DNA from: Deltaproteobacteria bacterium
Lineage (GTDB): Bacteria > Desulfobacterota > Desulfuromonadia > Geobacterales > Pseudopelobacteraceae
Length of the DNA: 64,000 bases
Direction of reading: 5' to 3'
NCBI GenBank assembly: GCA_019162745.1
Contig: JAFLLC010000029.1
Span: forward strand, 1-64,000
Shown here: piece by piece, positions 21,346 through 64,000 of the stretch
How positions within the stretch are numbered: the stretch's first letter is position 1
Layout of the letters: each line of letters starts with the position of its first letter
Position numbers and translations under genes: made by a program
Notes under the pieces: model-generated
Seen by the model: the letters and a program-made list of their open reading frames with translations, nothing else
The model's database searches: none
Told to the model about the DNA's origin: nothing

Positions 21346-21443
21346 TGGCGGAAGCACATGGGAATCGAACCCACCGGGGAGATTTCTCATCCCCCCCACC
21401 GGTTTTGAAGACCGGGCCGCCCACCAGCGACGGACGTGCTTCC
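21346..21443 (-). tRNA. selC: tRNA-Sec (selC)
   Basis: The 98-base minus-strand gene has the long acceptor stem GGAAGCACG pairing with CATGTGCTTCC-type sequence. The anticodon loop is GGTCTTCAAAACC with anticodon TCA. The variable arm is very long (GGGGGGATGAGAAATCTCCCC), the T loop is GTTCGAT, and the gene ends GCCA. These are the hallmarks of bacterial selenocysteine tRNA. Neighbouring selB confirms the call. Confidence 0.97.
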
Positions 21444-27743: not shown

Positions 27744-27752
27744 AAACAGACC

Positions 27753-27803
27753 TAACCCAGATAAACTGGATAAGTGCGTTAACGAAATAATTTCTAACTT
27801 ACT
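27753..27803 (+). repeat. 51-nt intergenic dispersed repeat, copy 1
   Basis: The reverse complement of this 51-base stretch (starting TAACCCAGATAAACTGG and ending TTTCTAACTTACT) is present without mismatch at 39247-39325, split by a 28-base insertion. The copy ends 17 bases before the tsaD start codon. Its centre GAAATAATTTC is nearly self-complementary. No ORF of note covers it. Confidence 0.9.
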
Positions 27804-27820
27804 AAAGGCATCATGACGTA

Positions 27821-28843
27821 ATGATTTTACTCGCTATTGAAACATCTTGTGATGAAACGGCCGCCGCTGTTGTGCAGGGCGGCCGTGAAATTCTTTCCTC
27901 AGTCGTTTCGTCCCAGATTGCTATCCATGCGGCGTACGGCGGCGTTGTGCCGGAAATCGCTTCACGTGCCCATCTGCAATCCATCGCTCCGGTTATCAGC
28001 CAGGCGCTCCAGGACGCCGGTATCGGCATGGAAGCATTAGAAGGTGTCGCCGTTACGCGTGGCCCCGGTTTGTCAGGGGCTCTTCTCGTTGGTTTTTCGG
28101 CGGCCAAGGCTATTGCTTCTGCTCGTAAAATCCCCTTTATCGGTGTGCATCATATAGAAGGCCATCTCTTTGCACCATTTCTGGAACGGCCGATAGATTT
28201 TCCTTTCCTGGCGCTGGTCGTATCAGGCGGTCATACTCATCTGTACCATGTCGAAGGTTTTGGTATATACACGACCCTTGGCAGAACTATCGATGATGCT
28301 GCCGGTGAGGCGTATGACAAATGTGCCAAAATTATGGGCATGCCGTATCCAGGCGGAGTATTGATCGACCGGATGGCCCAGAGCGGCAATCCGGATGCGA
28401 TCCGTTTGCCCAGGCCCCTGCTTCGTGACGGTACGCTCAACTTCAGCTTCAGTGGTTTGAAAACGGCGGTGCTGCAGCAGACCATGAAGAATCCAGTTAC
28501 AATTCCGAGTCAGGCCGCAGATGACCTGTGTGCTTCATTCCAGGAGGCGGTCTGCCATGTCCTTGCGGCAAAAACTGAAGCTGCCATCCGTCAGACCGGT
28601 GCTGTCCGTCTGGTAGTTGCGGGAGGGGTCGCCTGTAACAGCGGACTGCGCCTTCGAATGGCTTCACTCTGCAAAAAACTGGGGGTTGAACTTTCCATCC
28701 CGCACCCCTCACTGTGCGGCGACAATGCGGCCATGCTGGCGGTTCCCGGAGATTATTATCTCTCACATGGTCTTGTTTCGCCCCTGTCGCTTGATGTCAC
28801 CGCTACCTGGAATATGGACAGTATAAAGGAATCAATGAAATGA
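27821..28843 (+). CDS. tsaD: tRNA N6-adenosine threonylcarbamoyltransferase TsaD
   Basis: TsaD transfers threonylcarbamoyl to A37 of ANN-decoding tRNAs. The 340-residue ASKHA-fold protein opens with LAIETSCDETAAAVV and has the metal-binding HHIEGHL, SGGHTHLYH and GEAYDKCAKI. C-terminal SLCGDNAAMLA is also present. The partner enzyme TsaC is encoded three genes on. The stop overlaps the rsmA start. The intergenic repeat lies in its leader, so part of it may be transcribed with the gene. Confidence 0.96.
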   Translation: MILLAIETSCDETAAAVVQGGREILSSVVSSQIAIHAAYGGVVPEIASRAHLQSIAPVISQALQDAGIGMEALEGVAVTRGPGLSGALLVGFSAAKAIASARKIPFIGVHHIEGHLFAPFLERPIDFPFLALVVSGGHTHLYHVEGFGIYTTLGRTIDDAAGEAYDKCAKIMGMPYPGGVLIDRMAQSGNPDAIRLPRPLLRDGTLNFSFSGLKTAVLQQTMKNPVTIPSQAADDLCASFQEAVCHVLAAKTEAAIRQTGAVRLVVAGGVACNSGLRLRMASLCKKLGVELSIPHPSLCGDNAAMLAVPGDYYLSHGLVSPLSLDVTATWNMDSIKESMK

Positions 28844-39207: not shown

Positions 39208-39245
39208 AACACTCGTACCGTATCAAAAGGGCGAGTGTTTTTTTT
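39208..39245 (+). terminator. Intrinsic terminator after the LysM gene
   Basis: AACACTCG (39208-39215) pairs with CGAGTGTT (39232-39239), followed by a T run to 39245. The dispersed repeat starts two bases later. Confidence 0.75.
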
Positions 39246-39246
39246 A

Positions 39247-39325
39247 AGTAAGTTAGAAATTATTTCTTGTGCTTTTTGGCAAGAAAATAATTTCGTTAAC
39301 GCACTTATCCAGTTTATCTGGGTTA
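39247..39325 (-). repeat. Dispersed intergenic repeat, copy 2 (with hairpin insert)
   Basis: This copy is the reverse complement of 27753-27803. Its first 20 bases (39247-39266) and last 31 (39295-39325) match without mismatch. Between them lie 28 extra bases (39267-39294) that, with the preceding arm, form a stem: GAAATTATTTCTTG against CAAGAAAATAATTTC. It ends eight bases before the first possible gspE-like ATG. Confidence 0.9.
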
Positions 39326-39332
39326 TAGGGGT

Positions 39333-41279
39333 ATGCAGGATATGAATATTAGAAAAGTTGGCGAACTGCTTGTTGAACAAAAACTGATTTCAGAGGAGAA
39401 TCTGCTTGAAGCGCTTGAACTTCAGAAGATTTTTCCAAATCAGCCTGTTGGACAGCTGCTTTGCAAGCTCGGATTTATAAAAGAAAGTGATCTTAGTAAT
39501 TTACTTGACCAGAAAGACAAGCGGCGCAAGCTGACCGATATTCTGGTTGCGGGTGGGTTCGTGGACCAGCAGCAGATTTCTCATGCCCGAGAAGTCGGCA
39601 AGCAGAATGCAATATCTCTTGAAAAAGCGCTCCTTAAGTTGAATTATGTTGACGAAGAGAGCCTGTCTAAAGCTATTGCGAGCCAGTATGACATGCCGTA
39701 TGTTCACATCAATACTCAGAATCTTGACCTTACACTTTCCGGTTTCATAAGTGCGGTCTACGCTCAAAAACAGCGCATCGCTCCAATTTCTAAAATCGGC
39801 AACACGCTGACGCTGGCGATGGCCCAGCCGCTCAAATCGCATGATATTCGTGAATTGGAAGACAGTATCCGACTCAAGATTATTTCTGCCATTGCCACAG
39901 AGACGAGCATCTCCAAGTCTATCAAGCGGTTATATAATATTGATACGGCAAGCAGTACAACCGCTATGGATGAGGTAAATCTTGACCTGGTACCGGACAG
40001 TATTGTTGATCTTTTAAGTAAAAACTCGTCTGGTGATGAGCCGGAGGTTGAGGAAGAAACCAAGAAAGTTACTGAAAAAGACAGCGTTATTGTCAAGCTC
40101 GTCAATAAGATCATTTATGATGCCTATATGAATAAAGCCTCCGATATCCACATAGAACCGTATCCCGGGAAAAAAGATGTCATAGTTCGTACCAGGGTGG
40201 ACGGTCAGTGTTCTATTTATCAAAGGATTCCGTATAAATATAAGTTTGCTCTACCGTCTCGCATCAAAATCATGGGTGATCTGGATATTGCCGAACGGAG
40301 AAGACCTCAGGACGGGAAAATAGAGTTTAAAAAATTCGGCCCGCTCGATATTGAACTTCGAGTCGCAACCATGCCGACGGTTGGAGGACTTGAGGATGTC
40401 GTTATCCGTGTTTTAGCAAGCGGCGATCCAATTGGTTTTAGCGATCTTGGCCTGACAGAACGAAACCTGCGTATTTTCAAGCAATCGCTGTCGCGTCCAC
40501 ATGGGCTGATTCTGGTTGTCGGTCCGACCGGTTCAGGTAAAACAACAACTCTTCATTCCGGGTTAGCCCAGATAAATCAGACTAATCGCAAGATATGGAC
40601 GGCAGAGGATCCGGTTGAAATCACTCAGCCAGGTCTCCGCCAGGTACAGGTTAATCCGCGTATCGGGTTTACTTTTGCGGCGGCCCTTCGCTCCTTTCTC
40701 CGTCTCGACCCGGATGTCATAATGGTTGGAGAAATGCGTGATGAGGAAACAGCTACTATTGCGGTTGAGGCATCACTTACCGGGCATCTTGTATTTTCAA
40801 CGCTACATACTAACTCGGCTCCGGAAACGGTTACGCGTCTGCTCGAAATGGGTCTTGACCCTTACAGCTTCTCTGATTCTCTGGTCTGCATTCTGGGTCA
40901 ACGACTTGCGCGTCGACTCTGTATGGATTGTAAGGAGAGCTTTCAACCGTCAGCGGCTGAATTTGAGGAACTGGTTGATGAATACGGCAGGATTGAATTC
41001 AATAATACCGGTCTGGGACTGGAGGATGTAGTTATGTTCAGGACGGTCGGGTGTGATCAGTGCGGGCATAGCGGTTATCGCGGCCGTCTCGGTCTCCATG
41101 AAGTGCTTGAATGTACGGATGCTATTAAAGGTCTTATCAAGAAGCGCAGCGCAGATACGGAAAATGTTCGGGAACAGGCCGCAAGTGATGGAATGACCAC
41201 GCTTAAGCAAGATGGCATTCTCAAGGTACTTCGCGGTCTTACTGATATTCACGAAGTACGTCGAGTCTGCATAAAATAA
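39333..41279 (+). CDS. GspE/PilB-family ATPase with MshEN-type N-terminus
   Basis: This 648-residue ATPase drives type II secretion or type IV pilus assembly. Two N-terminal modules (about 4-50 and 60-125, RKVGELLVEQKLISEENLLE and LTDILVAGGFVDQQQ) resemble MshEN, which binds c-di-GMP in MshE. The first lacks the typical Gly after LLV. The ATPase has Walker A VVGPTGSGKTTTLHS (about 395), Walker B DVIMVGEMRDEE (about 460), the HTNSAPETVTRLLEMG stretch and a four-Cys zinc site (CMDC and CDQC). No secretin or pilin gene is near. The ATG at 39342 is an alternative start. The leader consists of the dispersed repeat. Confidence 0.9.
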   Translation: MQDMNIRKVGELLVEQKLISEENLLEALELQKIFPNQPVGQLLCKLGFIKESDLSNLLDQKDKRRKLTDILVAGGFVDQQQISHAREVGKQNAISLEKALLKLNYVDEESLSKAIASQYDMPYVHINTQNLDLTLSGFISAVYAQKQRIAPISKIGNTLTLAMAQPLKSHDIRELEDSIRLKIISAIATETSISKSIKRLYNIDTASSTTAMDEVNLDLVPDSIVDLLSKNSSGDEPEVEEETKKVTEKDSVIVKLVNKIIYDAYMNKASDIHIEPYPGKKDVIVRTRVDGQCSIYQRIPYKYKFALPSRIKIMGDLDIAERRRPQDGKIEFKKFGPLDIELRVATMPTVGGLEDVVIRVLASGDPIGFSDLGLTERNLRIFKQSLSRPHGLILVVGPTGSGKTTTLHSGLAQINQTNRKIWTAEDPVEITQPGLRQVQVNPRIGFTFAAALRSFLRLDPDVIMVGEMRDEETATIAVEASLTGHLVFSTLHTNSAPETVTRLLEMGLDPYSFSDSLVCILGQRLARRLCMDCKESFQPSAAEFEELVDEYGRIEFNNTGLGLEDVVMFRTVGCDQCGHSGYRGRLGLHEVLECTDAIKGLIKKRSADTENVREQAASDGMTTLKQDGILKVLRGLTDIHEVRRVCIK

Positions 41280-43772: not shown

Positions 43773-46634
43773 ATGGGTAAAATTAGTGTGGGTAGTTTGG
43801 CAAAAACGTTGGGTGTGGAGCCCAGGGAAGCTATTGCCAGACTCAAGGAAATCGGTGTTGACGCAAAAACGGCCACATCGCAGGTTGATGAGGATGTTGT
43901 TGCGCGCTTGACAGCCCCCCAGCCAAAAGATACCGGTACCAATGAAGTCAGGGTAGCGTCAAATATCATTCGGCGTCGCGCCAAGGTAGTTACTGCAGAC
44001 GAAGTTGCTGAAACAGCGGCACTCGACCAAGCGTCGCCTGTCCAGCCAGTCGTCACTCCGCCACCGACGGCGGTATCTTCAGCCGGGCCGCCTGTTGCAG
44101 CCGTTATCCGTCCTGAGATGGAGCACAAAGTGTCCGCTGTTGCTGTCGCGGCTCCCGAACAAACGGTGGAAGCGGTAAAAGTGGTAGAACCGGTGAAAGC
44201 GCCGGAATCAATAAAAGCCGCAGAACCGGTAAAAGTGCCGGAACCGGTAAAAATCGCAGAACCGGTGAAAATCGCAGAACCGGTGAAAATCGCAGAACCG
44301 GTGAAAGCACCGGAATCTGTGAAAGCGGGGCCAAACCAGGCCAGAATTCTCGGTATGATGGAAATCCCGGGTGTGACAAATCGTCCGACTCGTGTTGTCA
44401 CCAAAGACACACCCGTTACGCCGCGGACCGCTCCTCAGCGTCCTGGACAAGATTCGGCACAACCGAGAAGACCTGCGCCTGCTGCCGGAGAGCAGAGAAG
44501 ACCCGCAACGGGAACAGGAACCGACACAAAACGTCCTTCGCCTGGTTACGATCAGAAACGCCCTGCGACTGTAACACCTTCAGCTCCAGCAACTGAGCTT
44601 GATCGTTCACGCATGAAGCAGGTACAGCTTGCTCCGGCGGCGCTTCCGGGTGGTGACAACCGCCGTGGCGGTAAAAAAGAGGGTCCCGGTTATGGAGACG
44701 CCGGCAAAGGTACCAAGAAGGGTGCCCCACCGGTCAAGAAAAAGGAGCAGCCGCGCAAGAATGAAGTTATAGAAAAACGTGAACGTGCGTTTGATCCTGT
44801 CTATAGGGGTTCAAAGAAGCGGGGCGCAAGAGAACAGCGGTATACTGATACCAAAAAAACGGAAATTACCGTACCGAAGGCGATAAAGCGTATCATCAAA
44901 ATTTCGGAAAGCATTTCAGTCGGGGAACTTGCCAAGCGTCTCGGCATCAAGGCAAACGATCTCATCAAATCGCTGATGAAGATGGGGATGATGGTTAATA
45001 TCAATCACCAGCTTGATTACGACACTTCTGTTATTCTTGCATCAGAGTATGATTATGAAGTTGAAAATGTGGCGGTGGATCTTGATGAAATTCTTGAATC
45101 CACTATTGATGCACCTGAATCCCTCGTAAAAAGGCCTCCGGTTGTGACAATCATGGGTCATGTTGACCATGGCAAGACTTCCCTGCTTGATGCAATTCGT
45201 GAAGCAAACGTTATCGCCGGCGAGGCCGGAGGAATCACTCAGCATATCGGGGCTTACGACGTAGAGTTGAACGGGCGGAAGATCACCTTCCTCGATACTC
45301 CGGGACATGAAGCGTTTACCGCAATGCGTGCCCGTGGCGCCAAGGTCACTGACATCGTAATTCTTGTAGTTGCTGCTGATGACGGTGTTATGCCGCAGAC
45401 CAAAGAAGCTATCAATCACTCCAAAGCTGCCGGAGTGCCTATTATCGTCGCTATCAACAAAATTGACAAACCTGGTGCAAAACCGGAAAAAGTCAAGCAG
45501 GAATTGACAGAGCAGGGCATTGTTTCCTCGGAATGGGGTGGCGATGTCACGATGGTGGAAGTTTCAGCCAAGCAGCGTATTAATCTGGATGGTTTGCTTG
45601 AAATGGTTCTTCTGCAGGCGGACCTGATGGAGTTGACGGCTAATCCGAACAAACTGGCTAAAGGGACCATTGTCGAAGGAAAACTCGACAAGGGGCGTGG
45701 TCCAATTGCCACCGTACTTGTCCAGGAAGGAACGGTTAAAACCGGTGACTATTGCGTCGTTGGCGTTCATTCCGGACGTGTCAGGGCGATGCAGAATGAT
45801 CGCGGTGAAAAAGTTACCGAAGCCGGTCCTTCTATGCCTGTTGAGCTGGTTGGGTTATCCGGCGTCCCGGATGCGGGTGATGTCTTCGTGGCTATGAAAG
45901 ATGAAAAGCAGGCCAAGGAAATCGCTACGTTGCGTCAGATCAAACAGCGCGAAGTCGAGTTTGCCAAACATACCAAGCTTTCGCTTGATGATCTCTATAA
46001 GCGGATTCAGAGCGGCGAAGTCAAAGATCTCAATGTCGTTGTCAAAGGCGATGTTCAGGGTTCTGTCGAGGCTGTCAGTGAAACACTGCGTAAATTATCG
46101 ACTGATGCGGTCCGCCTGAATGTTATACACTCTGCAGTTGGAGCGGTTACCGAGACGGACGTCAATCTGGCTGCAGCTTCGAATGCTGTCATTATCGGCT
46201 TTAATGTCCGCCCTGAAGTTAAGGCACAGGGGCACGCAGAGCGAGAAGGTGTTGATATCCGACTCTACAGCATTATCTATGACGCAGTTGAAGATGTCAA
46301 AAAGGCGATGGAAGGTCTGTTGGAACCAACCTACAAAGAGAAATTTCTCGGTCGTGTTGAAATCAGGGACGTATTCAGTGTACCGAAAATTGGTAATGTT
46401 GCCGGTTGTTACGTTACCGACGGCAAGATGGTTCGTAATGCTCAAGTCCGCCTGTTGCGGGATAACGTGGTTATGTACCAAGGTAAAATGTCATCGTTGC
46501 GTCGCTTTAAAGATGATGTCAAGGACGTTTCCTCCGGTTATGAGTGCGGCATCGGACTTGAAAACTACAATGACATCAAAGCCGGCGATATTATCGAAGC
46601 ATTTGAAATGGAAAAAATTGCCACCAAGCTGTAA
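43773..46634 (+). CDS. infB: Translation initiation factor IF-2
   Basis: IF-2 is the GTPase that places initiator tRNA on the ribosome. The 953-residue product starts with an IF2-N helix module (about 1-50), followed by a long low-complexity linker with an EPVK repeat (139-186) and a second N module near 380. The G domain starts near 458 with [17 protein letters not shown], then [26 protein letters not shown] and INKIDKP. Domains II-IV end with [22 protein letters not shown] precedes the ATG. Confidence 0.97.
44187..44330 (+). repeat. 18-bp tandem repeat in infB linker
   Basis: Eight consecutive 18-base units, the clearest being GAACCGGTGAAAATCGCA, encode EPVKIA-type hexapeptides. The three central units are nearly identical, so length variation between strains is likely. 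It accounts for the open antisense frames seen here. Confidence 0.85.
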
Positions 46635-63582: not shown

Positions 63583-64000
63583 ATGGAAAAACAACATTTT
63601 GAGATTTTGCTGGAAAATATGGAACTCAATATTAAAATGATGCATGAAGGCTTTGCAGGCCTGAGTGATACGATTAAAGCCGAATCTGCTGAACGTAAAG
63701 CGGAAAACAAACTTTTGGATGAAAAAATTTCAGCATTGAGCAATCGGATTGGTTCCGTTGAAACTAATCTGAATGCCAAAATTGATTCTGTTGAAACTAA
63801 TCTGAACCTTAGGATTGATTCTGTTGAAGCCAATCTGGGAGCCAGAATTGATTCTGTTGAAGCCAATCTGGGAGCCAGGATTGATTCTGTTGAAGCCAAT
63901 CTGGGAGCCAGGATTGATTCTGTTGAAGCCAATCTGGGAGCCAGGATTGACGCCGTGCATTCCGATTTAATTGACCATCGCAATAATTCTGAAATGCACA
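63583..64000 (+). CDS. Coiled-coil protein with 11-residue tandem repeats (partial)
   Basis: The gene runs off the right edge; 139 codons are visible. ATG follows GGGGTGA. The protein begins MEKQHFEILLENMELNIKMM and becomes an uninterrupted coiled coil made of 11-residue units IDSVEANLGAR (six full copies at 63748-63945). The four central units are almost identical at DNA level. Hendecad repeats of this kind form long right-handed or straight coiled coils. The minus-strand open frames here are shadows of this repeat. Function unknown. Confidence 0.8.
   Translation, partial: MEKQHFEILLENMELNIKMMHEGFAGLSDTIKAESAERKAENKLLDEKISALSNRIGSVETNLNAKIDSVETNLNLRIDSVEANLGARIDSVEANLGARIDSVEANLGARIDSVEANLGARIDAVHSDLIDHRNNSEMH
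63748..63945 (+). repeat. 33-bp tandem repeat inside the coiled-coil gene
   Basis: Six consecutive 33-base units start at 63748, 63781, 63814, 63847, 63880 and 63913. The last four differ by one base at most. A diverged seventh follows. The near identity implies recent expansion by slippage or recombination. Confidence 0.92.

Follow-up and report, generated by a model that had tools for sequence, protein, structure and literature searches.

The window, by which we mean the whole 64-kb stretch of DNA that was analysed, contains two inverted copies of a short folded repeat which belongs to a multi-copy family and is nearly certainly mobile. We favour, at a probability of about 60%, a non-autonomous element of ~78 bp which is recognized by its structure and works like a REP or an IS200/IS605-type element. 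Fixed ends, a choice of target and paired hairpins together point to a folded single strand recognized by a trans-acting enzyme, and the mechanism which our analyses favour, as a hypothesis, is a single-strand, HUH-like one. Under this hypothesis a trans-acting transposase would recognize the hairpins in single-stranded DNA and cut at CT(AA) sequences on both sides, so that the unit would move in a manner similar to that of IS200/IS605-type elements and REPs. As none of the HUH enzymes tested (Y1, Y2, MobA) tracks copy number, we describe the element as working like these systems and not as a member of them.

The two window copies and their family

A repeat search of the window revealed an inverted repeat with arms 11.4-11.5 kb apart (Table 1), as the preliminary description had reported. 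Its claim of an exact 51-nt reverse complement was overstated, as the match consists of a 41-nt and a 23-nt block of 98% and 96% identity and copy 2 has 28 extra nt. Both copies do lie within 17 bases of a start codon as it had stated, copy 1 ending at 27805 with the tsaD frame starting at 27821, and copy 2 ending at 39322 with the frame of a GspE-like gene (Pfam T2SSE, MshEN) starting at 39333. On the other side copy 1 is bordered by a PhoH-family gene and copy 2 by a LysM-domain gene. A covariance-model search scored copy 1 at 63.6 bits (27754-27805) and copy 2 at 87.6 bits (39245-39324). The 28 nt which copy 1 lacks form the tip of the long hairpin and are present in the middle of copy 2; in full copies they are bounded by a short direct repeat, GAAAT, which suggests slippage across the hairpin, and judging from the sequence copy 1 probably lost its hairpin tip by replication slippage after insertion. 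Single-strand DNA folding gave z = -5.56 for copy 2, z = -6.73 for a copy at another locus (L079) and z = -1.80 for the shortened copy 1, which 9 of 200 shuffles equalled. A 16-base core matched the window twice, both times exactly, against a shuffle mean of 0.52 at up to three mismatches, a loose setting at which 8 of 100 shuffles also reached two matches. The window further contains a selenocysteine tRNA gene (21350-21443, Rfam match), a repeat array with an 18-nt period (44146-44326) and a repeat with a 33-nt period in five overlapping copies (63748-63978).

Table 1. Positions of the repeat arms and of the parts of both element copies in the window.
Feature	Position	Strand or orientation	Basis
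Repeat arm pair A	27753-27793 / 39285-39325	inverted	41 nt, 98% identity
Repeat arm pair B	27784-27806 / 39244-39266	inverted	23 nt, 96% identity
Target tetranucleotide CTAA, left edge of copy 1	27752..27755	+	uninterrupted site of relative G041
Copy 1, shortened element, 50 bp	27756..27805	+	model match, full-copy comparison, relatives' uninterrupted sites
Short hairpin 1 of copy 1, CCAG-ATAAA-CTGG	27757..27769	+	fold; compensatory changes across copies
Copy 2, full-length element, 78 bp	39245..39322	-	model match, DNA fold, relatives' uninterrupted sites
Short hairpin 1 of copy 2	39309..39321	-	fold
Long hairpin 2 of copy 2	39245..39307	-	fold, covariation, model match

In the whole own genome the 20-base core GGATAAGTGCGTTAACGAAA had 25 matches at up to three mismatches, whereas its reversed control had 2. 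With a covariance model made from 67 copies we obtained 27 matches in this genome at E <= 0.001, one of them an opposite-strand shadow, leaving 26 distinct places. The preliminary description had proposed that copies be counted in this genome and its relatives, and had regarded a total of just two, with both sites empty in relatives, as making a chance duplication more likely; the count obtained supports an element family instead. The model was then applied to 58 genomes (own, 36 of the same genus and 21 from other genera of the order), of which 32 had a match at E <= 0.001, namely the own genome, 28/36 of the same genus and 3/21 of the other genera. The other genomes of the genus ranged from 0 matches (eight genomes) up to 76, counts which may hold a few shadows. 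Across the phylum at least 12 of 297 genomes, own included, matched at E <= 1e-6 (11/198 genera, six families), a lower bound as strict filters were used.

An exact scan of GTDB contigs found at least 114 stretches with the element. Titles among the matches listed were Geobacter/Geobacteraceae, Desulfuromonadales or Desulfuromonadaceae, Syntrophaceae, Smithella/Smithellaceae, Syntrophobacterales, Desulfobacterales, Pelobacter, Pelotalea and 'Deltaproteobacteria', with three just 'Proteobacteria'; the hosts are a group of sediment bacteria. No plasmid or phage record matched an 82-base consensus, even with E values of up to 1 allowed, and a lone viral-contig match (L190), which had neither hairpin 1 nor the right half, was taken as chance. 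Rfam gave no match for the element at gathering scores in the window, and in seven loci with copies searched at E up to 1 the sole matches fell elsewhere in those loci. The core letters ATAAGTGCGTTAAC did not occur in the main text of the openly readable papers searched.

Folded structure and the search for a transposase

The consensus reads C-CC[T/C/A]G-ATAAA-C[A/G/T]GG-ATA-AGTGCGTTA-AC-GAA[G/A]TTATTTTCTGC-loop-GCAGAAAATAA[C/T]TTC-TAAC-T-TACTAA, a unit of ~78 bp with one short hairpin and one long bulged hairpin. Hairpin 1 consists of four pairs and abuts the left edge, so that it lacks a separate 5' guide of the kind described for IS200/IS605. In hairpin 2 a foot containing a C-T mismatch is followed by a bulge of 2 nt and then by a long upper stem. 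In copy 2 this hairpin runs from the foot stem through an AC bulge of 2 nt, the upper stem and the loop to the right end CTTA (consensus CTAA). Within the 67-copy set 94.0% of cells were paired and 10 of the 27 pairs had changed on both sides; 8/500 shuffles scored as high on the both-side-change measure and 0/500 on the other four. As these copies were picked by the 5' core and 3' end, the conservation of these two parts is built into the set. We also aligned 80 matches, which gave 77 distinct rows, to the model, a procedure that leans towards the structure, and a few of the rows are opposite-strand shadows. Here 91.5% of cells were paired, both partners had changed in 20/27 pairs, and none of 500 shuffles scored as high on any measure; pairing fell to 39-50% when the partners were slid. 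A divergent subfamily of the own genome (L206, L213) has the foot re-paired as AGTGCCTTA/TAAGGCACT.

GGATA precedes hairpin 2 on its 5' side in nearly all of the 67 copies of the alignment, partly by construction in this core-picked set, and GGAT at this place is a candidate guide tetranucleotide. Neither GTAG nor GTGG was found at the 5' hairpin foot in these 67 copies. Terminal inverted repeats were likewise absent from the aligned copies, in which the termini differ and pairing is internal to each hairpin. At L090, L120 and L182 the loop holds a further palindrome of the CCCCTTGAGGGG type with ~25 extra nt, possibly another small repeat nested there, and the second of the copies at L166 (1980-2086) equals these in total length. 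At L108, L152 and L155 the loop of one copy contains a further copy of the family. Tandem copies have one common junction, CTAG in L133, L156 and L170 and other letters in L174 and L097.

Many of these features would be expected of a REP proper, whose RAYT/TnpA_REP in these bacteria escaped detection, disappeared once the repeats had multiplied or is encoded in DNA missing from the assemblies. The size of the element, its position between genes, the bulge in its hairpin, the CT at either edge and the tandem and nested copies all agree with it, the own genome has 11 Y1 matches and the genomes are drafts. However, the GTAG/GTGG foot is missing, and the Y1 genes themselves offered no partner. We collected 68 Y1-transposase loci from 17 genomes (11 own, 57 in 16 relatives), with flanks of up to 1.5 kb at 41 loci and of ~0.6 kb at the other 27, or shorter where a contig ended. 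None of the 68 contained a model match (best E 0.31 in the eight which were re-searched at full sensitivity) or an autonomous copy with the same ends. Y1 genes were present in all 16 genomes tested, whether rich in copies (10) or without them (6), and hence do not track the element. In a tree of 59 of the 68 proteins, nine having been dropped where the match was not covered by an open frame of 110 aa, no clade followed copy number (20 label changes compared to 18.8 in shuffles).

At 13 of the 26 Y1 loci inspected, both flanks had in common a sequence of at least 14 bases which is distinct from the element. At one of these loci, L259, the flanking repeats begin GTAGCCCTGACCCC and have nine bases, TAGCCCTGA, in common with some element left ends. 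This likeness was rejected, as loose left-end matches at the 68 Y1 loci need at least seven mismatches in 22, as in shuffled patterns. On these grounds we regard a REP proper as a doubtful reading. The Y1 genes at L259, L261, L264, L276 and L277 have inverted repeats of their own on both flanks (e.g. GATAACAACGTCCC, TATGTAGCCCTGACCCC), which from their sequences look like separate REPtron-type families.

IS91-like Y2 genes were found in 6/14 rich and 4/8 empty genomes and thus did not track the element either. A search for separated ends (~2.9 Mb, both strands, overlaps included, L310-L349 left out) gave nine left-half and three right-half places, which were considered as a possible autonomous version and interpreted as copies that are truncated or have diverged, or as chance matches. 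As right-half-only copies are not in excess (3 vs 9), RNA copying by target-primed reverse transcription is unlikely. Integron attC and Xer/dif sites seem unlikely, the element having many scattered sites, a variable middle and no matching core. We would put forward only tentatively that a family of structure-recognized repeats present in several Desulfobacterota families, with its core kept across distant hosts, is moved by an enzyme or process outside the known Y1/Y2 HUH transposases.

Insertion sites, ends and gene context

For 18 own copies the two flanks were joined and used as queries against 39 genomes from the genus. For at least 14 of the 18 sites, both window copies included, a relative matched across the junction with the element absent; for L197, L206, L212 and L213 there was no junction match among the matches listed. 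When 40 stretches of relatives over the 14 sites were aligned, the element was in none of them (at L200 the alignment was poor near the junction). The relative G041 has flanks of 82-96% identity over most sites and lacks both window copies, which are most simply insertions in the own lineage after its split from G041. At the tsaD site this relative (L311) reads ..CCTAAAGGCA.. uninterrupted, and the window reads ..CCTAA/CCCAG...TTA/CTAAAGGCA.. with slashes at the element edges; in other words, G041 has GATCCTAAAGGCA before tsaD where the window has GACCTAA-element-CTAAAGGCA. The target of copy 2 is less clear, the element lying against the A/T tract of a hairpin which by eye resembles the terminator of the upstream gene and which was not flagged by a simple terminator scan.

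The right end was CTAA (the four bases after ...CTTA) in 126/153 copies. The left four bases of the same copies were CTAA in 26, CTAG in 20 and TTAA in 13, the rest being scattered; the wider left edge was loosely CCTAR-like and CT was common at both edges. At L208, L198, L195, L202 and L191 the relative's site has CTA(A) once and the element has CTA(A)/CTRR on both sides, the pattern expected of a classical MITE moved by cut-and-paste with a DDE transposase and a 4-bp YTAR/CTAA target duplication. However, the edge tetranucleotides are not copies of each other, the right being near-constant and the left variable, and at L201, L204, L193 and L209 CTAA is missing at the element end from the sites of relatives (1 to 4 per locus, some of them divergent). 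The right CTAA is therefore better read, on the sequence, as the element's own and the left CCTAR as target. In IS200/IS605 elements a target tetranucleotide flanks the left end, an equivalent final tetranucleotide lies in the right end, and the transposases use hairpins and tetranucleotides (PMC6006769, PMC8266576). The arrangement of left target and right own tetranucleotide would be better read as this layout than as a target duplication, and with termini which are not inverted repeats of each other a classical MITE is unlikely. The mobile element of MITE-like or REP-like kind which had been suggested from the window alone is supported by the multi-copy family, the uninterrupted sites in relatives at both window loci, the target preference and the fixed ends. 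As strict class labels neither term fits well, with no terminal inverted repeats or consistent target duplication for a classical MITE and no Y1 partner found or GTAG foot for a REP.

One copy, at ~1489-1579 of L211 (own contig C102), lengthens a response-regulator-like gene at its start by 78 nt, or 26 in-frame codons, and this N-terminal extension is absent in two relatives. When 170 copies were placed with a crude ORF caller, the flanking genes both ran opposite to the element in 51 cases and both in its direction in 35, and a further 23 copies had divergent and 20 convergent neighbours. Another 19 fell within called ORFs, of which some are probably spurious, and 22 were at the edge of a contig; 129 of the 148 copies with both neighbours called or in an ORF lay between called genes. 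Adjacent copies agreed in orientation in 26/48 pairs, with no orientation bias seen, and GC skew on the element strand was positive/negative in 53/65 (p 0.10) and 30/27 (p 0.36) copies in two sets (t-test). IS200/IS605 elements have an orientation bias to the lagging-strand template. In 114 loci of named records, ten clusters of neighbour genes occurred in at least four loci; by eye these were signalling, transport and metabolic genes, and no recurrent recombinase was recognized among them.

A structured regulatory RNA (leader, attenuator or mRNA stabiliser) kept for its function would also account for strong covariation and for mostly intergenic copies often a few bases from genes. It is nevertheless improbable, as gene arrangements are unselective, relatives have no element at the same sites, matches range from 0 to 76 inside one genus and Rfam has no match. 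Copies in all arrangements, together with relatives which do without the element at the same places, also argue against placement of a promoter or terminator type. The regulatory cassette which the preliminary description had offered as a further option fares no better, the element being absent before tsaD and before the GspE-like gene in the relatives' stretches (5/5 each) and every gene arrangement being occupied. The element need not have a function for the adjacent gene. A chance or one-off 51-nt duplication in the own chromosome, in favour of which both window copies fall into the same close subfamily, that with the CCAG/CTGG hairpin, is refuted by copy number, with dozens more copies in own and other genomes having the same ends and structure.

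Comparison with known systems

The palindrome-associated elements derived from IS200/IS605 (PATEs) resemble the element in having a hairpin near each end, a target tetranucleotide at left, their own tetranucleotide at right and no clear duplication. Unlike them, hairpin 1 of the element abuts the edge without a guide, no IS with matching ends was found and no orientation bias was seen. MobA relaxase was tested because of a likeness to oriT: MOB_Q plasmid oriT (e.g. RSF1010) has a hairpin followed by TAAGTGCG, resembling the element. However, the element does not end at that nick site, MobA_MobL genes were found in 1/23 genomes and there was no plasmid match.

REP/BIME sequences with TnpA_REP (RAYT) are likewise short, multi-copy, mostly intergenic, bulged imperfect palindromes with CT edges and tandem copies. 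The element differs from them in its two unequal hairpins within a 78-bp unit, with no GTAG foot and no Y1 gene found. In E. coli TnpA_REP cuts at CT beside the bulged REP and the bulge is needed (PMC6006769, PMC8266576). REPs are described as species-specific (PMC6006769), whereas the 20-base core of the element is common to several families of the phylum.

Among related bacteria, Geobacter uraniireducens has the Chunjie MITE of 178-235 bp with terminal inverted and direct repeats, also a miniature and mostly intergenic element and once found inside an operon (PMC10969869). Our element differs in being shorter (~78 bp) and in having neither terminal inverted repeats nor direct repeats. Geobacter genomes have palindromic multicopy intergenic families, one of which inserted in genes without frameshift (PMC2700814, PMC2996986). 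These families were compared by description only, and the element may already be listed among them.

Compared to these systems, the many insertions with sharp ends and uninterrupted counterpart sites in relatives make the element a natural system for the study of short-repeat mobility. The 78-nt unit equals 26 codons and has once been accommodated in frame, and a single genus spans 0 to 76 matches. A caution also follows for annotation, in that such intergenic hairpins are not to be taken as regulators of tsaD or of secretion/pilus genes. The enzyme, if found by contrasting rich and empty genomes, would tell how repeats with two hairpins spread.
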